Origin: Sulfitobacter mediterraneus
Lineage (GTDB): Bacteria > Pseudomonadota > Alphaproteobacteria > Rhodobacterales > Rhodobacteraceae
Direction of reading: 5' to 3'
Assembly (NCBI RefSeq): GCF_016801775.1
Contig: NZ_CP069004.1
Coordinates: forward strand, 434,001 to 498,000
DNA: 64,000 nt
How positions within the stretch are numbered: the stretch's first letter is position 1; each line of letters starts with the position of its first letter. The notes beneath the pieces were generated by a model, which had not been told where the DNA came from, did no database searches, and worked only from the letters and a program-made list of their open reading frames with translations. Shown one piece after another: positions 49,297-59,795 of this stretch. A program made the position numbers and the translations under genes.

Positions 49297-49641
49297 CTAG
49301 GCCATTGCCGCTGTGATAATGATCTCGACCTTCAGCTCTGGCCGGGCCAAGGCTGCCTCGCCGCAGGCACGGGCGGGGGCCGCGCCCTCGGGCACCCAAC
49401 TGTCCCAAACCGCATTCATCGCCGCAAAGTCCGACATATCCGCCAGCCAGATCACCGCTTGAAGGATATGCGCAGGGCTTGATCCGGCTTCGGCCAGCAA
49501 CGTTTCGATCCGGCGCAGGCATTCGCGGGTCTGATCGGTGACATCGCCCTCGGCCCCGCCAACCTGACCGCAAAGATAGACGGTTTCCTTGTGGATCGTG
49601 ATCTTGCTCATGCGCTGTGCGGTGTGGCTGCGGGTGATCAT
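49297..49641 (-). CDS. RidA family protein
   Basis: A 114-residue RidA/YjgF-type protein (Y-L-C-G-Q-V-G-G near residue 22, [13 protein letters not shown] near 83, with the conserved Arg that contacts imine carboxylates). RidA proteins hydrolyse reactive enamine/imine intermediates. Its start overlaps the oxidase gene stop by 4 bases. It is the last gene of the dehydrogenase operon, as expected when flavin oxidases release imines. Confidence 0.9.
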
Positions 49642-51044
49642 GGGTCTTGTCCTTCGGGCTGTGATGGGGCGGGGCTGTGCAGGGCGGCAACTTCGCCCAA
49701 TGTGACGGGTTTCAGCGGGGCACGGATCCTGAAATATCCGGTGTCTTGATGGTTTTGCCCCGTGGCTTGCGCCAATAGTTCGGTCACCGTCAGTCCGCAA
49801 GAGCGCCCCTGACAGGGGCCCATCCCCGCGCGGCCAAAGGCCTTGGTCTGGCTTGGCCCTTTGCAGCCAAGGCGGGCATAGGCGCGAATGTCACCTGCGG
49901 TTACGTCTTCGCAGCGACAGACGATCACCTCATCAGGGGGCTGCATGACCCCGGCGGGCGGGGCATAAAGCGCATCCAGAAACGGGCGCAGCGCCCGTTC
50001 GCGGGCGAGGTTTCGTTTGGCGGAGGCCGCGAGGCCATCACGCTGGGCGGTGGTGATCCGGCCAGCGCTGCGCAAGATATCAGCAGCGGCGCATTGACCG
50101 GCGTGCTCTGCCGCTCTGGCCCCGCCGATTGCCGCACCATCACCGGCGATGTAAATCTGTGGATGGCTGCTTTGCCCCCATTCGGAAACAGACGGGTGGA
50201 AACAGCGTTGCCCCGCGTGCCAGCGATGATCCAGGCGCAAGGCGCGGGTGATCTGTGTGTTTGGCACCACCCCTTGATGCAACAGCACGGTCGTGCATTC
50301 CAGATGATGTGCCTGACCCAGAGCCGTGAACCGCAGCCCACTGGTGGCAGTATCGCCCGTGATGGCCAGATCGCTGGCAGCCGTGTAACGCGGCACAGCG
50401 GCGCGGCGCAGATCGCGCAGCATCCGCGCCCCTTTCGCCAAGGTCTTCCAGCCGCGCAATGCGCCGACCGCATGGCGCAACGCGGCGCGGTAGTGGGCGG
50501 GTGTCTGGGTCTCGACCAACGCCTTGGGCGGCGTGCCTGCCTGCACCATCTGCACTGCGACCAGATAAAGCAGTGGACCGGACCCCGCCAGAACGGCGTC
50601 CTTGCACAATAATCCGCTGGTCTTCATCAAGATCTGCGCCGCGCCTGCAGTCATCACCCCTGGCAAGGTCCAACCGGGCAGCGGCACAGGCCGTTCCGTT
50701 GCGCCCGTGCAAATCAGCAGGTGATCTGCCTTGGCGCGATAGGCCTGGCCGTCTTTGGAATAGGTGACGGTGCAATCTTGATCCACATCCCAAACCACCG
50801 CGCTTGAGATCACCGTGAGGGGGGCCGCAGTCAAGCCATCAATCAGCCGCAGGCCTGCGGCATAGTCCGGACCCATAACAGCCCTTTGTGTTGCCGTGGA
50901 TGTTGCCAGATTGCGGTAAATCTGGCCGCCCGGCGCGGGGTTTTCATCCAGCACCAGCACAGACATGCCCTGCTGCGCGGCCAGCATGGCGGCGGCCATG
51001 CCAGCTGGACCTGCACCGATGACAATCAAGTCGGAGCGGGTCAT
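49638..51044 (-). CDS. FAD/NAD-linked oxidoreductase subunit (HcnB/opine oxidase A-like)
   Basis: This 468-residue protein has a Rossmann FAD site near the start ([12 protein letters not shown]), a second nucleotide site and a C-terminal BFD-like [2Fe-2S] module: C-R-C-E-D-V-T and C-Q-G-R-S-C with spacing as in OoxA, HcnB and alpha subunits of proline/amino-acid dehydrogenases. It pairs with the small 2Fe-2S protein and the FAD protein at 51324. The start at 51044 overlaps the preceding gene's stop by 4 bases. Confidence 0.88.
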
Positions 51045-51331
51045 GGGATGTCCTTTACAGGGGGCGGCGATGTAACGGTCAGACCGTCCTGCGCTGCGGT
51101 CTGGCAGGCTTGCACCGTTTCGCCATCCACCACCACAAGACACTCAAGACAACTGCCCATCATGCAATAAGGCCCGCGGGGCGCGCCGGTTGTCGGGGTC
51201 TGGCGAAACACCCTATGGCCCTTTGCCAGCAATGCCGCGGCGATGGTATCGCCGGATTGGCCAGTGACCTCTGCGCCGTTGAAGGTGAAGCGCAGGCGGT
51301 CACGCTGGCCCTTGTCCATCCGTTCAAACAT
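51041..51331 (-). CDS. Small [2Fe-2S] subunit (HcnA-like)
   Basis: The 96-residue protein is a plant-type ferredoxin-like subunit with C-M-M-G-S-C-L-E-C-L and a later Cys in V-Q-A-C-Q. It corresponds to HcnA, or the gamma subunit of amino-acid dehydrogenases. ATG 51331 follows GAGGA; it overlaps the FAD gene stop by 8 bases, so the three subunits are tightly coupled. Confidence 0.88.
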   Translation of the reverse strand: MFERMDKGQRDRLRFTFNGAEVTGQSGDTIAAALLAKGHRVFRQTPTTGAPRGPYCMMGSCLECLVVVDGETVQACQTAAQDGLTVTSPPPVKDIP

Positions 51332-52424
51332 CAAACCGGTCCTCACCAAAAGCTGTCAGATCAGGCTGCTCCGCGCTGTCGGTCAACCAATCACCCAATA
51401 CCCCTGCATGTGCCGCCGCCAGCGTGATGCCGCTGTGGCAGGTCACAAAAAAAGCGCCGGGATGCTGCACCGACCGCTGGTAGATCGGCAGTCCATCGGG
51501 TGACATGATCCGCAACGCGGCCCAGCTGCGCAGCATTCTGGCGTGGGCCAGTTTGGGAAACATATCCACTGCATGCGCCGCCAGTCCGGCCACCGTTGCC
51601 ACATCCTCGCGATCATTGAGACCAACCTCGGCGCTGCTGGCACCGATCTGGATGCCGCCTTCGTCGACCTGCCGGACCTCGACATTGGGCCGGTTCATCA
51701 GTTTGGGCAGCTTTTCGGTGATGATGATCTGCCCCTGCTGCGGCCGGATGGGGGCAGTGAACCCCAGCTGCGGCCCCAGCGTCATCGCGCCCAACCCGGC
51801 GGCCAGCACAACCTTTTCTGCAACCATAGTTGTGTTGTTCTGGTCGGTAATGGTGAACCCCGCCGATTGCGGCTGGATGTCTGTCACCCTGTGGCCGGTC
51901 CGCACCGTGCCGCCCAACTGGCGCACCGCGATGGTCAGCCCGCGCAACAGCCGCAAAGGGTTCACATGCCCGTCCTCACGGCAATAGAGCGCGCCCGCCA
52001 CCTTGGGTCCGATGTTGGGCTCTTCTGTCTTGAGCGCGTTGTGGCCCATCACCTCGAACGGATAATCGCCCCCCAGACGGTTGCGCAACCCATCGTAAAG
52101 CTTGCGGTCGGCATCAAGGCTGTCTTCGCTCATGTGGATGATATAGCCGCCATCCTGTTGCAGGTTCAGTGGCAGGCCAGAGACAGTTTCGATCTCATCG
52201 GCAAAGCTCCGGTAGGCGCGGGCAGAGGCCCTTGTCCATTGCGCATAGGCCGGTTGATGCAATCCCTTGCTTTGCACCCAGACCAGCCCGAAATTGCCCC
52301 GAGAGGCGCGAAAGGCGCTGTCACCTTCATCCCAGATGCAAACCGATTTGCCACGCTTGAGCAGGCCATAGGCAAGCGACAGCCCGACAATCCCGCCTCC
52401 GATGATGGCAAATTCCGCTTCCAC
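51324..52424 (-). CDS. FAD-dependent dehydrogenase catalytic subunit (DadA/HcnC/opine oxidase B-like)
   Basis: A 366-residue DAO-family FAD protein (I-I-G-G-G-I-V-G-L-S-L-A-Y at the N-terminus, long substrate domain, and R-S-W-A-A-L-R-I-M-S-P-D-G-L-P near the end). In three-component complexes this subunit oxidises a C-N bond of opines, glycine or D/L-amino acids and passes electrons through the Fe-S subunits. It starts with GTG at 52424, after a GGAG. It is the first gene of the operon; the LysR gene reads in the same direction 90 bases upstream. Confidence 0.88.
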   Translation of the reverse strand: MEAEFAIIGGGIVGLSLAYGLLKRGKSVCIWDEGDSAFRASRGNFGLVWVQSKGLHQPAYAQWTRASARAYRSFADEIETVSGLPLNLQQDGGYIIHMSEDSLDADRKLYDGLRNRLGGDYPFEVMGHNALKTEEPNIGPKVAGALYCREDGHVNPLRLLRGLTIAVRQLGGTVRTGHRVTDIQPQSAGFTITDQNNTTMVAEKVVLAAGLGAMTLGPQLGFTAPIRPQQGQIIITEKLPKLMNRPNVEVRQVDEGGIQIGASSAEVGLNDREDVATVAGLAAHAVDMFPKLAHARMLRSWAALRIMSPDGLPIYQRSVQHPGAFFVTCHSGITLAAAHAGVLGDWLTDSAEQPDLTAFGEDRFDV

Positions 52425-52514: not shown

Positions 52515-53435
52515 TCAAAGTTCTCCGCGTTGCGACAATTGTGTCTGTTCCTCGCATTTGATCTTGAGCCAGTTCACAAAGTCCACAACGTTGGAATTGT
52601 GCGAATTTTTTGCCGGATACACGGCATAATACCGTTCCTTGCAGACCAAGCGATGCTCATGGGCGAGCCTGAGCATGCCGCGCTCCAACTCGTTCTGGAT
52701 CAGGAACTCTGGCAGAACCGCAACGCCGATGCCGGCCAGCGCGGCCTCGATCACATGGGCGTAGAATTCAAACCGCGGGCCAACTGTTGCGCCCACTGGC
52801 CGGGTGCCGCAACTTTTCAGCCAATCATTCCAAAGATAGGGGCGCGTGGTGTGCTGGATCAACGTATGTGAGGCTATCTCGTTGGCCTGCATCATGGGTT
52901 GGTCCAGTTCAAGCACGGAAGGGGCGCAAACGGCCACGACGGCCTCGTCCATCAGGTATTCACAATGGGCCTTGTCCCATTCAGGCAGGCCAAAGTGGAT
53001 GGCCAGATCCGTGACTTCGTTTTCAAAATCAAAGGGGCTGATCTTCGAGATCAAGTTCAGCTCAATCAATGGGTGTTCTGACAGAAACTCACTCAGGCGC
53101 GGCACCAGCCATCTGGTGCCAAAGGTCGGCAGAATGGCAACGGTCAGCACACCGCCATGCCGGCCCTGAGAGATCAGCCGCGCGGTTGAAATTTCCAATC
53201 GGTTGATAATCTCGCTGACTTCTTTGGCATATTCACGCGCTGCCGGTGTCGGGGTGAGCTGTCGCTGCTCGCGGGTGAACAATTTACGCCCCAACAAATC
53301 TTCAAGCCCCGAAAGGCGTTTGCTTACAGCGCTTTGCGTCAGGTTCAGCTCCTCCGCGGCCAAGGTGACGCTGCCCAGGCGGACGGTCGATTCAAAGCAG
53401 GCCAAAGAACTGGTTGGCGGCAATGTGCGTCTCAT
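52515..53435 (-). CDS. LysR-type regulator between the dehydrogenase operon and ABC operon
   Basis: The 306-residue protein is a GcvA-like LysR regulator: HTH in residues 5-62 (L-A-C-F-E-S-T-V-R-L-G-S-V-T-L-A-A-E-E-L) and an effector domain. It precedes the dehydrogenase operon on the same strand and is divergent from the ABC operon at 53660, so it probably controls both. A palindrome TCCATTTTGGA lies at 53467-53477 in the shared region. Confidence 0.9.
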   Translation of the reverse strand: MRRTLPPTSSLACFESTVRLGSVTLAAEELNLTQSAVSKRLSGLEDLLGRKLFTREQRQLTPTPAAREYAKEVSEIINRLEISTARLISQGRHGGVLTVAILPTFGTRWLVPRLSEFLSEHPLIELNLISKISPFDFENEVTDLAIHFGLPEWDKAHCEYLMDEAVVAVCAPSVLELDQPMMQANEIASHTLIQHTTRPYLWNDWLKSCGTRPVGATVGPRFEFYAHVIEAALAGIGVAVLPEFLIQNELERGMLRLAHEHRLVCKERYYAVYPAKNSHNSNVVDFVNWLKIKCEEQTQLSQRGEL

Positions 53436-53659: not shown

Positions 53660-55273
53660 ATGATGTTTCGGAATTTAATGGCCGCCTCTGCGCTGATGGC
53701 TTTGCCAATCAGCGCCATGGCCCAAGACGGCGAGATTGTGCCAGAGGTTGATTTCCTGACCTGGCCCGCCGCGAAATATTCGCACTACGCAGAAAGCTCA
53801 AACTACGTGGCAGAGCAGTGGGAGAAGCTGGGGCTTAAGGTCAATATCAATCCCGTCGCCTTCCCCAATCCGATGCTGTCTTTGTGGTTCAAGGAGCATA
53901 AGTTTGACGCGGTCTTGTCCTCGCTCTCGGGCAATCCGCTTCGGCTTGAGCCGGACTTTTTCACCAACTCTCAGTTCAACTCGGCAAATTCCGCCCCCGG
54001 CAACTGGAACGTAGGGGAATACAGCAACCCCATGGTGGACAAACTGGGCGAAAAGCAGCTGGGCATCTACGACCCCGAAGAACGCCGCGAAGTGATCTAT
54101 GCCTTGCAGGAGGAGCTGTACAACGATCCCCCCGAGGCCATCGTGACCTATGCCATCAGCACCCATGCGATCAACAGCGACAACATGGAGATCGACGGTT
54201 TTGAAGCCTCGCCCGAGGGCATCCGCGCCAACGACAATATCATGCGGATGAAGTCCAAACATGGTGGTCCCGTGCGCATCGGCTGGACGGTGGATTACAC
54301 CACGCTCAACCCGCTGGTGGCCAGCACCAATGAAGACCTGACCAATCTGGCCCTGATCTATGACAAGCTCGTGGTGCTTGCACCCGACGGATCGCCACGC
54401 ATGTGGTTGGCGGAGTCCATTGAGGTGGTCGATGACCTGACCGTGGATGTCAAAATGCGCACAGGTCACACGTTCTCTGACGGACAGCCGGTGACACCGG
54501 AGGACGTGAAATTCACCTTTGAGTATATGAAAAAGTGGGAATCCGCTTACTTCACCAAATATCTTGAAAAAGTGGCCTCGGTGAACGTTGTTGGTGATGA
54601 CACGGTCCGTTTCACACTCAACCAACCCTATGCGCCCTTTGTGATGAACACGCTGGGGCAGGTCTATGTCTTGCCGCAGCATGTCTGGGGCACGCTGGTA
54701 GAGGATCTGGGCATCGAAAAGCCACAGGATTTTGCCAATGATCGCCCAATCGGCAGCGGCCCCTACACCGTGAAATACCGCAAGGAGGGGCAGGAGATGT
54801 ACCTGTCTGCGCGCAAAGACCACTATGGCGAACCGCAGTCTGATATCCTGAGCATTGTCTACGGCTCTGCCGAGGTGGTGATGCAATCACTGCGCAAGGG
54901 CGAGATTGACGCCTCTTTCCAGCCGGTTGTTCCGATCACCATTGATGAATACCGCGGTCTCGACAACATCAAGCTCTATGAGGCGAAGTCGAACGGCTAC
55001 AACTCTGTGCGCTACAAGGTTACAGGGCCGGTGTTCTGGAACAAGGACCTGCGCCGCGCCTTGGCCCATGCCGTGCCTTATGATGCCATCATCAATGACA
55101 TCTTTGGTGGTCTCGCGGCGGCCTCGGGCAGTTCGATCGTGCCGGTCAACGCCTATTGGCACAATCCCGCACTGAAGCCTCCGGTCTTTGATCTCGATCT
55201 GGCCCGGCAGATGCTGAAGGACGCCGGGTTCACCTGGGATGACGACGGACGGCTGCACTTTCCGCCCAAGTGA
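53660..55273 (+). CDS. Family-5 (peptide/opine-type) substrate-binding protein, apparent circular permutation
   Basis: The 537-residue protein has a true Sec signal peptide (1-21, A-M-A). After it, residues 28-200 look like the C-terminal lobe of SBP_bac_5 proteins: Y-V-A-E-Q-W-E-K-L-G-L-K-V, K-F-D-A-V-L, Y-S-N-P-M-V-D-K-L, D-P-E-E-R-R-E-V-I-Y. Residues 203-537 then look like the family's N-terminal part: T-T-L-N-P-L-V, L-A-E-S-I-E-V-V-D-D-L-T-V, G-S-G-P-Y-T-V, V-F-W-N-K-D-L-R-R-A-L-A-H-A, and finish with L-A-R-Q-M-L-K-D-A-G-F, which usually lies in mid-protein just before the C-lobe. So the order is reversed while total length is normal. It should feed the permeases downstream; the ligand is unknown. 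Confidence 0.85.
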   Translation: MMFRNLMAASALMALPISAMAQDGEIVPEVDFLTWPAAKYSHYAESSNYVAEQWEKLGLKVNINPVAFPNPMLSLWFKEHKFDAVLSSLSGNPLRLEPDFFTNSQFNSANSAPGNWNVGEYSNPMVDKLGEKQLGIYDPEERREVIYALQEELYNDPPEAIVTYAISTHAINSDNMEIDGFEASPEGIRANDNIMRMKSKHGGPVRIGWTVDYTTLNPLVASTNEDLTNLALIYDKLVVLAPDGSPRMWLAESIEVVDDLTVDVKMRTGHTFSDGQPVTPEDVKFTFEYMKKWESAYFTKYLEKVASVNVVGDDTVRFTLNQPYAPFVMNTLGQVYVLPQHVWGTLVEDLGIEKPQDFANDRPIGSGPYTVKYRKEGQEMYLSARKDHYGEPQSDILSIVYGSAEVVMQSLRKGEIDASFQPVVPITIDEYRGLDNIKLYEAKSNGYNSVRYKVTGPVFWNKDLRRALAHAVPYDAIINDIFGGLAAASGSSIVPVNAYWHNPALKPPVFDLDLARQMLKDAGFTWDDDGRLHFPPK

Positions 55274-55325: not shown

Positions 55326-56321
55326 ATGATTGAAGCAAACAATCTCATTCGTCATTATCCGGTGGTGACCGGGCTGAGGTCTCTTTTTTCCGCGGACCGG
55401 CACAAGATGGTCCGCGCTGTGGACGGGATCAGTTTCAAGGTTGATGCAGGCAAGGTGCTGGGCATCGTCGGCGAAAGCGGATGCGGCAAATCCACCACGG
55501 CCAAGATGCTTGTGGGGCTGGAAAGCCCCACAGCTGGCAGCATCCTCATAAACAAGGACGATCTGGGTGAGATGCGCATCCGCGATCGCCATGCCTTTCA
55601 CCGGCAGATGCAGATGGTGTTTCAAGATCCTTACGGCTCCATCAACCCCAGCCATGATGTGTTTCAGATCGTTTCGCGCCCGCTGGTCTACCAGGGGGAG
55701 ACCGATACAGCCAAGATCCGCACAGCTGTTCTCAAAGCGATGGAACAGGTGGGACTAAACCCGCCCGAATTGTTCCTCAGCAAACATCCGCATCTTCTGA
55801 GTGGCGGGCAGCGGCAGCGCTTGTGCATCGCACGGGCGATTGTTCTGGACCCCACGTTTCTGGTCGCGGACGAACCCATCTCGATGCTGGACGTGTCGAT
55901 CAAATGGGACATCATCCGCCTGTTACGCCAGTTGGTGCGGGAACGCGATCTGTCGCTGGTTTACATCACACATGATCTGGCGACCGTTCCGACGATCTGT
56001 GACGATGTGGCGATCATGTATCTGGGCAAGATTGTCGAGATCGGCCCTGTTCGGGAAATCCTGAGAAACCCCAGCCATCCCTACACCAAGGCGCTGATAG
56101 CCTCGATTCCCAGCCATGTGCCGGGGGCGGAGAGGCCCGCCGCGCAGATCGAAGGGGCTTTGCCCGATGCGATCCGGCCGCAGGAGGGTTGCCTGTTTCG
56201 CGACCGTTGCCCAGTGGCGATTGCTGATTGCGCAACACAGGCGCCGCCATTGGCCTCAACGGGCAAACAGATGGTGGCCTGTCATCTGGCCAACACAGGG
56301 AAGGACGCCGCCCATGGGTAA
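55326..56321 (+). CDS. ABC transporter ATP-binding protein (Dpp/OppF type)
   Basis: A 331-residue ATPase with Walker [11 protein letters not shown], signature L-S-G-G-Q-R-Q-R-L, and the C-terminal oligopeptide-transporter domain C-L-F-R-D-R-C-P-V-A. The start at 55326 lies 52 bases after the SBP. Its stop overlaps the permease start by 8 bases. In most dpp operons this subunit comes last; here it comes right after the binding protein. Confidence 0.93.
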   Translation: MIEANNLIRHYPVVTGLRSLFSADRHKMVRAVDGISFKVDAGKVLGIVGESGCGKSTTAKMLVGLESPTAGSILINKDDLGEMRIRDRHAFHRQMQMVFQDPYGSINPSHDVFQIVSRPLVYQGETDTAKIRTAVLKAMEQVGLNPPELFLSKHPHLLSGGQRQRLCIARAIVLDPTFLVADEPISMLDVSIKWDIIRLLRQLVRERDLSLVYITHDLATVPTICDDVAIMYLGKIVEIGPVREILRNPSHPYTKALIASIPSHVPGAERPAAQIEGALPDAIRPQEGCLFRDRCPVAIADCATQAPPLASTGKQMVACHLANTGKDAAHG

Positions 56322-57285
56322 GTATCTTGTCACGCGTCTGGTCCATATGGTGCTGACCCTGCTGGCGATGCTGGTGCTGATGTTCTTTTTGTTCCGGCTG
56401 ATGCCGGGTGATCCTACGGCCATGGTGATCAGTGACGCGCTTTATCCCAAGGCCCAAGCCGCCATGATGGAGCAATTCGGCCTCGACAAACCACTGCACC
56501 AGCAATTCGTGATCTACCTCAAGAATTACGCCCAGTTCGACTTTGGTGTGTCTTTCCGGACCAATAGGTCGGTTGCGGAATTGATCGAGGGACGGCTGAT
56601 GAACACCATCATGCTGATCCTGCCGTCGCTCATAGCGGCCTATGGGTTGGGCATGATCATCGGCGCAGTGATGGCATGGTGGCGTGGCGGCAAGGCAGAG
56701 TTCTCTGTGGTGTTTGCGGCCACGGCCTTTCAATCGGCACCAGTGTTCTGGGTCGCGATGCTGGCGATCTTGGTGTTCTCGCTATGGCTGGACTGGTTTC
56801 CAGCGGGCCATATCGTCACCCCCGGTGCATTCCCGGACCCGACGCTGGCGATGTATCTTTCCAAGGATTTCCTGCACCATCTGGCACTGCCCTTCATGGT
56901 CAACACCGCCTATCAGATCTGTTTCCCGCTGCTGCTGATGCGCTCCAGCATGCTGGGCACGATCGGTGAGGACTTTATTGAACTGGCCCGTATGAAGGGG
57001 CTGAAGGAACGCCGCATCCTGTTTCACCACGCGGCGCGCAATTCCATGCTGCCAGTGGCGACCACGATCCCGATGATCCTTGGCTGGGCTGTCGCAGGCT
57101 CTGTCGTGATCGAAACCGTGTTTTCATGGCCGGGGCTGGGATTGCTGATGATCCAGGGCGTCGAGACATCGGATTATCCGGTGGTGCAGGCCGCTTTCTT
57201 CCTGATTGCCGTATTGACGGTGCTGGGCACCTTTGCGGCTGATCTTCTTTATGGGCTTTTGGATCCGAGGATTGTTTATGACTGA
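56314..57285 (+). CDS. ABC transporter permease (DppB type)
   Basis: A 323-residue permease of the DppB group with six helices; M-P-G-D-P-T near residue 28 and the EAA-type loop L-A-R-M-K-G-L-K-E-R-R-I. It starts at ATG 56314, overlapping the upstream ATPase gene, and its stop overlaps the next permease by 8 bases. Confidence 0.92.
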   Translation: MGKYLVTRLVHMVLTLLAMLVLMFFLFRLMPGDPTAMVISDALYPKAQAAMMEQFGLDKPLHQQFVIYLKNYAQFDFGVSFRTNRSVAELIEGRLMNTIMLILPSLIAAYGLGMIIGAVMAWWRGGKAEFSVVFAATAFQSAPVFWVAMLAILVFSLWLDWFPAGHIVTPGAFPDPTLAMYLSKDFLHHLALPFMVNTAYQICFPLLLMRSSMLGTIGEDFIELARMKGLKERRILFHHAARNSMLPVATTIPMILGWAVAGSVVIETVFSWPGLGLLMIQGVETSDYPVVQAAFFLIAVLTVLGTFAADLLYGLLDPRIVYD

Positions 57286-58210
57286 GATCACCGCCGATAC
57301 CGCCGCGACACAGATGGCGGCCAGCGAGGCGCGTCTTGAAAAAGGGCCGGTGGCCTTTGCCCGGCACTTCTTGCGCACCGTGCATCAGACCTGGTCTGGC
57401 AAGATCGCTTTCTGGATCTTTGTTTTCTGCGCCCTGATGGCGATCATTGGGCCGCTCATCGCGCCCTTTGACCCGATGGAGCGTAACTATGATGCGGCGG
57501 GCAAACTGGTGCGATTGGCCCCGCCATCGCTGGATCATTGGCTTGGCACCACGGCGCTGGGCCGGGATGTGTTCAGCCAGATCTTGTGGGGCGCAAGGCC
57601 CGCGATGCTGGTGGGAGTGCTGACAGCACTGGGCGTCGTAGTCATCGGCGTCAACGTCGGACTGATTTCCGGCTATTTCGGCGGCAAGACCGACGCCATC
57701 CTGATGCGCATAACAGACGTGTTTCTGGGTTTGCCCTTCTTGCCCTTCATCATTGTGGTGCTCTCGATTTCGGGGCGCAGCATCTGGACCATAATCTTTG
57801 CCATGACCCTTGTGATGTGGCGGTCCACCGCGCGGGTGATCCGGGCGCAGGTGCTGTCGCTCAAGGAAATGCCGTTTATTGCCGCCGCCCGTGTGTCCGG
57901 TGCCAGTGATTGGACCATCATTTACCGCGAAATTGCCCCGAACATCCTGCCATTGGCATTGGTGAACATCGCCTTTGCGCTGGCATGGGCCATCATCACC
58001 GAGGCCAGCATCGGATTTCTGGGCTACAGCGATCCCGAAGTCGTCAGCTGGGGATCGGTGATCTATCAGGCCTTCGCCAGCCAGATGATGTACCGCGCCC
58101 CATGGTGGGTGATCCCTCCGGGGGCCGCGATCATGGTTTTGGTCAGTTCCGTCTATTTCATCGGACGCGCCTATGAAGAAGCGGTCAATCCGCGCCTGCG
58201 GGGGCTTTGA
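57278..58210 (+). CDS. ABC transporter permease (DppC type)
   Basis: A 310-residue permease with the N-terminal extension and six helices of the DppC group; [13 protein letters not shown] near residue 86 and EAA loop [12 protein letters not shown] are typical. Overlaps the upstream permease by 8 bases. Confidence 0.92.
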
Positions 58211-58212
58211 TC

Positions 58213-59235
58213 ATGGCAAACCCGCGCCTGTCCGTCACTGATCTGTCCGTTCGTTATCGCACTGACCGCGGCCCTGCCGCCGCCTTGCAGGGGGTGAAGC
58301 TCACCCTTGAGGCCGGTGAAAACCTTGGTCTGGTCGGCGAATCCGGCTGCGGCAAAAGTACCTTCTTGAAATCGGTCATGGGGGTTCTGCCTGGCAACGC
58401 AGAGATCCTGTCCGGAGCGGTCTGTCTGAACGGAGAGGACATGATCGCCGCCACCCCGGAACGCCGCCGTCAGCGGCGCTGGAAAGACATGTCGATGATC
58501 ACCCAAAGTGCTTTGAATGCGCTTGATCCCGTGCATCGGGTGGGCGATCAGATCATTGATGCCATCAAGGCGCACGAGAATGTCTCACGCCGTGAGGCAA
58601 CGGCACGCGCCAAAGACCTGTTCGAACTTGTCGGTGTCGACCCCAAACGCTTTCGCGAATTCCCGCATCAGTTTTCGGGCGGTATGCGGCAACGGGCGAT
58701 CATTGCGATGGCATTGGTTCTGAACCCTTCTGTTGTCCTGGCGGATGAGCCGACAACCTCGCTTGATGTCATTGTCCAGGACCAGATCTTCCGCCGCATC
58801 CGTGATCTGCAAACCCAGTTCGGCTTTTCCATCCTGCTGGTCACCCATGATCTGGCGCTGGTGATCGAAAACTGTGACCGCATGGCGGTGATGTATGGCG
58901 GTGTCATCGTCGAAGAGGGGCCAACAGCGCAGGTCGTGAACACGCCGTTTCATCCCTATACCTTGGGGCTGAAGAACTCCCTTCCTGATCTGGACAGCGA
59001 GGCAGAGCCGATTGCCATCCCCGGCACGCCGCCTGATCTGGTGGATCCGCCCAGGGGCTGCCGCTTTGCGCCGCGATGCCCGTTTTCGCAAGATCAATGC
59101 CACCAGACCTTCCCGCAAATGCAGCAAGTCGCAGAAGGGCATCGCGCGGCCTGCCACCGAATTGCCGACATCGAAAATATTCGCGTGCAGGCCGCCCGCC
59201 CAGAAAAATGGAGCGTTGCCTCGGCGCTTGGGTGA
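58213..59235 (+). CDS. ABC transporter ATP-binding protein (Dpp/OppD type)
   Basis: The 340-residue partner ATPase: Walker [11 protein letters not shown], signature F-S-G-G-M-R-Q-R-A, Walker [10 protein letters not shown], and C-terminal C-R-F-A-P-R-C-P-F. The ATG at 58213 is used; a TTG at 58207 precedes it in frame. It completes an SBP-ATPase-permease-permease-ATPase operon. Confidence 0.93.
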
Positions 59236-59345: not shown

Positions 59346-59795
59346 ATGAATTACTTTGCCTACGGGACACTTCTGGATGTCGAAGGCATGCAAAAGTTTG
59401 CCCCCTCCGCCAAACCTTTGGGGATTATGAAACTCAAGGGATACCGGATGGGCTTTGGAGCGTGCAAACGCGATGGCGTGACCGGATGCACGCTGGATGT
59501 GGCTCCCGATGATGTCATGTACGGGATCCAATATGAGTTGAGCCAAGATGACATGGAAAAGCTGGATCAAGCCGCCGTGTCAGAGGATATGTGGGCCCGC
59601 AAAGAGATCACGCTCATTGATGCAGATGGCAATGAGGTGCCCTCGGTGACCTATGAAATACCCGGATTGACCCGCATGATCGCACCCAGTGACGACTATG
59701 TGCGCCCGATCCTCAAGGGGCTGGACGAACTGGACCTGCCCGAAAGCTATGTCGTTCATATGAGGCAGATTATCGCCCGCGCACAAACGGCCTGA
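59346..59795 (+). CDS. Gamma-glutamylcyclotransferase-like protein
   Basis: A 149-residue protein of the GGCT fold: N-terminal Y-F-A-Y-G-T-L (the Y-G-S/T-L substrate loop), G-Y-R-M-G-F and a Y-E-L-S-Q-D-D-M-E-K-L-D segment containing an acidic residue in the family's catalytic region. It may cleave gamma-glutamyl amines or peptides to 5-oxoproline. An AAAGGAAC site precedes the ATG. It is separate from the ABC operon upstream by 110 bases. Confidence 0.85.
   Translation: MNYFAYGTLLDVEGMQKFAPSAKPLGIMKLKGYRMGFGACKRDGVTGCTLDVAPDDVMYGIQYELSQDDMEKLDQAAVSEDMWARKEITLIDADGNEVPSVTYEIPGLTRMIAPSDDYVRPILKGLDELDLPESYVVHMRQIIARAQTA

Follow-up and report, generated by a model that had tools for sequence, protein, structure and literature searches.

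DppA, OppA, NikA, AppA and GsiB are members of family 5 (cluster C, Pfam PF00496) of the substrate-binding proteins of ATP-binding cassette (ABC) importers. A natural circular permutant is on record for another class of binding protein, Tp0684 (TpMglB-2) of Treponema pallidum, which is assigned to 'Type Ic / Cluster Bc' and has relatives in Gram-positive bacteria (PMC4990184). In this study, we show that the 537-residue protein encoded at positions 53660-55273 (+) of a 64,000-nucleotide stretch of Sulfitobacter mediterraneus DNA (contig NZ_CP069004.1, positions 434,001 to 498,000; hereafter, the window) is a natural circular permutant of the SBP_bac_5 (cluster C) binding proteins. The gene product is best explained as a secreted, naturally circularly permuted binding protein of an Opp/Dpp-type ABC importer, a reading to which we give a probability of roughly 0.93.

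The window protein resembles DppA and the other classical members by homology over both of its parts and by having the same partner importer genes, and a putative export signal can be read by eye in it; however, the order of its chain is changed around DppA residues ~343/355. Like Tp0684, it is an ABC binding protein permuted by nature, and both have relatives in a number of groups. However, Tp0684 has a fold of type I / cluster B (glucose/galactose), with an N-lobe permutation and a fourth hinge crossover (PMC4990184), whereas the window protein is not of cluster B, since Pfam gives PF00496 only and the NCBIfam matches are of the family-5 type. The 'domain dislocation' from type I to type II in binding-protein evolution, as outlined in PMC9815098, is likewise a rearrangement of strand order in binding-protein folds, but it is an ancient change of fold class, unlike the permutation of a whole recognisable gene. 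Our literature searches, whose scope took in neither most subscription papers nor any bioRxiv preprints, found no report of a permuted family-5 (cluster C) protein.

The gene is a single uninterrupted open frame from ATG to stop. Searched whole against PF00496, a profile of 368 positions with a Pfam cut-off of 32.4 bits, the protein matches in two stretches (E 2.5e-61, 208 bits), and residues 246-531 cover profile positions 2-285. The split search proposed in the original prediction gave the C-terminal and N-terminal halves in reversed order: residues 28-200 alone match positions 298-366 (E 6e-5, 22.8 bits, under the cut-off), so that profile positions 298-366 precede 2-285 and the ordinary N-to-C order is absent. 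The same test on three haloarchaeal permuted proteins had the same outcome. NCBIfam and Protein Data Bank (PDB) searches also placed the C-terminal part ahead of the N-terminal one, and the first segment by itself scored weakly; in 5isu, residues 198-526 correspond to 13-338 and residues 47-165 to 357-468. A family profile of residues 26-202 was more sensitive, matching mature residues 356-497 of E. coli DppA chains with E 7e-17 to 1e-15. Moreover, when a profile of 44 permuted proteins (query) was compared by hhalign with one of 24 ordinary proteins (template, 531 columns), query 186-527 aligned with template 7-343 (E 2.5e-84) and query 16-184 with template 342-505 (E 7.4e-29). These two blocks had probabilities of 99.8-99.9% (next matches, 3.8% and 0.2%) and tile the fold once, with one copy of each part and a junction at template columns 342/343; their counterparts in E. 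coli DppA are mature residues 1-343 and 355-492. The reversed two-block matches of PF00496, hhalign and the DppA mapping thus bear out the circular permutation that had been proposed from the letters alone.

No ordinary member among the matches listed is collinear with the protein over its full length, each aligning as two blocks of opposite order or through the N block only, and a collinear alignment to a known family, which the original prediction had named as its refutation, was thus not found among them. Among solved structures (the best 60 of 69 and the best 60 of 98 matches), no best stretch starts before query residue 186, and therefore none of those listed is permuted; nor did Foldseek with the whole model give a permuted structure among the best 50 of 1124 matches. 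The predicted structure of the full chain has a mean predicted local distance difference test (pLDDT) score of 93 and a predicted template modelling (pTM) score of 0.89, with high confidence in the moved segment, and its N part superposes on DppA 1-343, with 318 residues aligned (1dpe).

The window protein belongs to a widespread permuted family and is not a single oddity. Open frames of at least 350 residues in 121 loci (L001-L121) were classified by the order of their matches to N-part and C-part hidden Markov models (HMMs), and the 122 family proteins comprised 55 permuted, 61 ordinary and 6 left unclassified for want of a C-part match. Among the 55 are the gene of the window itself, some near copies and three fragments; ordinary C parts score lower because the HMMs were built from permuted members. 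At one of the loci (L115:5760-8945), two tandem binding-protein frames are present whose C part was missed by the HMM used. The permuted order occurs in Pseudomonadota, Bacillota, Deinococcota, Thermodesulfobacteriota, haloarchaea and one Thermoproteota record. Named bacterial strains carrying it belong to Maritalea, Nitratireductor, Martelella, Neorhizobium, Roseomonas, Ketogulonicigenium, Bosea, Oceanobacillus, Sedimentibacter and Dethiosulfatibacter, and the named haloarchaea to Halalkalicoccus, Natrononativus, Haladaptatus and Halorubrum; it is also found in metagenome-assembled genomes of Burkholderiales, Desulfobacterales and Trueperaceae and in a record titled Desulfurococcaceae archaeon AG1. 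The distribution is patchy, with a spanning match in 8 of 40 genomes and, in a sample of 289 genomes of the class, in 11 (own genome included in both), plus one match in the class sample cut by a contig end. The window's own genome holds 12 family matches, and the 7 listed of the 11 others align only within residues 194-536, like ordinary members. Plasmid records with a single place covering at least 80% of the query number 48, which is an upper bound: one of them, H23, was made up of two pieces and turned out to be ordinary (L041). The annotated plasmid records that the analysis covered give intact permuted genes the label 'ABC transporter substrate-binding protein', a Microvirga record being without a gene table; in a Neorhizobium galegae plasmid (L034:8992-10645), the permuted gene is annotated as two coding sequences and is apparently broken.

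The breakpoint is the same wherever both ends are intact in alignments of the permuted family (L034, L072 and L090 are fragments with one end visible each). Intact permuted proteins end shortly past the motif A-G-[YF] ... G-x-[LI]; the tail does not exceed 19 residues in any of them but L008 (33). The mature chain begins close to the strand that follows the breakpoint loop in ordinary proteins. The linker at the seam from the old C-terminus to the old N-terminus is of 0-9 residues in 52 of the 55, the longer ones being in L074 (18), L112 (51) and L107 (67); the insertions of the haloarchaeal L107 and L112 are rich in acidic residues. The divergent permuted members L008 and L123 have a similar N-terminal extension of ~40 residues between signal peptide and moved segment. 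That of L008 resembled a leftover copy of its own C-terminus, which could have been a relic of duplication, but this candidate was rejected: its pairwise score was equalled by 30 of 1000 shuffles, and the family C-terminus profile scored the L008 and L123 extensions no better than shuffles (797/2000 and 310/2000 as high).

The original prediction had described the two segments as whole lobes in reversed order; the C-terminal/N-terminal order stands, and the equation with lobes does not. If DppA lobe 1 is 1-261 plus 479-507 and lobe 2 is 262-478, limits that we assume, the cut between mature residues 343 and 355 would fall within lobe 2, and therefore lobe 1, ordinarily in two pieces, would be continuous and lobe 2 split. 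From this mapping, the break would need no extra hinge crossover. The sequence itself shows that the C-terminal ~30% of the ordinary chain has moved to the front, with the former C-terminus linked to the former N-terminus by only a few residues; the new termini fall in the loop that leads from the helix A-x-x-L-L-x-x-A-G-Y to the strand after it in lobe 2. The fold would be the usual two-lobed Venus flytrap, which would close round its ligand by way of the two hinge crossovers of ordinary members, with lobe 1 as one unbroken chain and lobe 2 shared between the two ends; the ligand would then be passed to the OppBCDF-type pump encoded directly downstream. The signal peptide or lipid anchor would lead into lobe 2 and not lobe 1. 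In 12 of 50 permuted proteins, a simple regular expression picks out a lipobox pattern ahead of the moved segment, and a membrane anchor would therefore pull on lobe 2 there.

That the swapped order is an artefact of assembly, frameshift or gene calling is hardly credible, because nothing was found in its favour and independent genomes carry it: the 55 permuted proteins come from many independent records and named isolates, those with intact ends have a common breakpoint, and in the window there is one open frame with each part once, in line with the earlier claim that neither frameshift nor duplication was at work. Some points would suit an unrelated domain placed before a truncated binding protein. 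Residues 28-200 score below the Pfam cut-off as a single sequence, and the isolated 177-residue segment, modelled alone, folds poorly (pTM 0.47) and has weak fold matches (best Foldseek E 6.4e-3). However, the profile matches to the C-terminal part of the family, both on DppA 356-497 and by hhalign, together with the confident prediction of the segment inside the whole chain, refute an unrelated domain, and we give that explanation next to no probability.

With regard to origin, the N and C parts were aligned separately and put in ordinary order in silico. In the resulting tree of 106 rows, a branch sets the permuted proteins apart with a Shimodaira-Hasegawa-like approximate likelihood-ratio test (SH-aLRT) support of 87; the permuted branch has 98/92 in a 63-row tree and 91/85 with three long rows removed, and the N-part tree holds the permuted proteins together at 99/98. 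A single permutation is the best-supported reading. What speaks against it comes from the C part alone (153 columns), which places the haloarchaeal L040, L107 and L112 among ordinary rows and still needs two changes when the long rows are removed. These three could represent a second independent permutation at the same loop in the Halorubrum/Haladaptatus branch, and no importer genes adjoin them (in L112, only 2.7 kb lies downstream). Yet these three fall with the other permutants in the trees of the N part and of the whole protein, their branch has the same breakpoint, L107 and L112 are odd in composition, and for the C part a single permuted clade is not rejected (p 0.264), all of which makes a second origin unlikely. 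A chimera, made by joining a C-terminal piece from one binding protein to the front of an N-terminal piece from another, was raised for Tp0684 by its authors (PMC4990184), and the C-part tree is poorly resolved and differs from the N-part tree. By eye, however, the point at which the main permuted group joins the ordinary tree is nearly the same for both parts (L114 and L030 change sides), which argues against two parent genes, and the two parts tile the fold exactly once; we consider a chimera very improbable.

The features of the locus are collected in Table 1.

Table 1. Coordinates in the window of the permuted gene, its parts and its neighbours
Feature	Position	Strand	Remark
Circularly permuted family-5 (cluster C) ABC substrate-binding protein	53660..55273	+	537 aa
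Signal peptide	53660..53722	+	residues ~1-21, AMA/QD cleavage; judged by eye
Moved segment	53735..54259	+	residues 26-200, the ordinary C-terminal part (DppA mature ~355-492)
Seam	54251..54268	+	residues 198-203, short linker from ordinary C-terminus to ordinary mature N-terminus
Ordinary N-terminal part	54266..55270	+	residues 203-537 (DppA mature 1-343)
New C-terminus	55199..55270	+	residues 514-537, helix LARQMLKDAGF and short tail; family-wide breakpoint
OppF/DppF-type ATPase	55326..56321	+	
OppB/DppB-type permease	56311..57285	+	
OppC/DppC-type permease	57278..58210	+	
OppD/DppD-type ATPase	58213..59235	+	
GGACT/AIG2-like protein	59346..59795	+	gamma-glutamyl cyclotransferase family
LysR-family regulator, GcvA-like	52515..53435	-	divergent

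The permuted gene opens a full Opp/Dpp-type operon, followed by OppF-, OppB-, OppC- and OppD-type genes and a GGACT/AIG2-like gene. Among permuted loci with at least 5.9 kb downstream, all four importer genes follow on the same strand in 33 of 38, the five exceptions being L063 and L074 (OppB and OppC) and L040, L066 and L107 (no importer genes); at the same minimum length, every one of the 6 loci from the window's branch has a GGACT-like homologue past the importer genes, placed as in the window. In other branches, nearby genes encode hydantoinase/oxoprolinase, M28 or M20 hydrolases, Asp/Glu/hydantoin racemase, creatininase, dipeptide epimerase and D-aminoacylase, and L049, L053 and L076 have a dipeptide-epimerase-like gene between OppB and OppC within the operon of the permuted protein. 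Divergent to the importer in the window (49297-52424, -) lie an oxidase-like set and a Rid-family gene. The set is made up of a small open reading frame (51041-51349) and two flavin adenine dinucleotide (FAD) proteins (49638-51053 and 51324-52424), with Pfam matches to Pyr_redox_2, SO_alpha_A3 and DAO; we take it to resemble HcnA/HcnB/HcnC-type amine or opine oxidase subunits, and it is possibly the catabolic partner of the imported compound.

In view of these neighbour genes, we suggest that the ligand is not a free dipeptide but probably, as a guess from gene context, a blocked or cyclic amino-acid derivative; a gamma-glutamyl compound, 5-oxoproline, hydantoin or similar may be considered as candidates. 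In DppA, R383 and D436 (E. coli numbering) grip the dipeptide (PMC12136057). They align with A37 and L94 of the window protein, so that neither is kept, in an alignment that is uncertain near a two-residue insertion. The adjoining R95 is R in 41 of 44 permuted rows (exceptions L039, L040 and L112). Because 28 of the 44 rows have E or D in the D436 column and the insertion blurs the alignment, the hint of a lost grip is limited to the window's branch at most.

The permuted branch is a real, widespread and structurally unusual variant of a well-known family, with a function that we infer. Family 5 is among the well-studied ABC proteins, yet a permuted bacterial and archaeal branch has been annotated as ordinary in the plasmid records covered here, which is also a warning that profile searches score permuted binding proteins as truncated. 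The permuted break offers a naturally tested cut site for sensor design. It is conceivable, though rather doubtful, that the branch is a distinct importer class, 'cluster Cc', in which the placing of the termini in lobe 2 was itself selected for the uptake of blocked or cyclic amino-acid derivatives, the haloarchaeal branch perhaps being a second origin at the same loop; if so, an unbroken lobe 1 and an anchor pulling on the other lobe would be what selection kept. With the permuted family, nature has also set up a test of whether folding, secretion, hinge motion and docking depend on the order of the chain and on where its ends lie.
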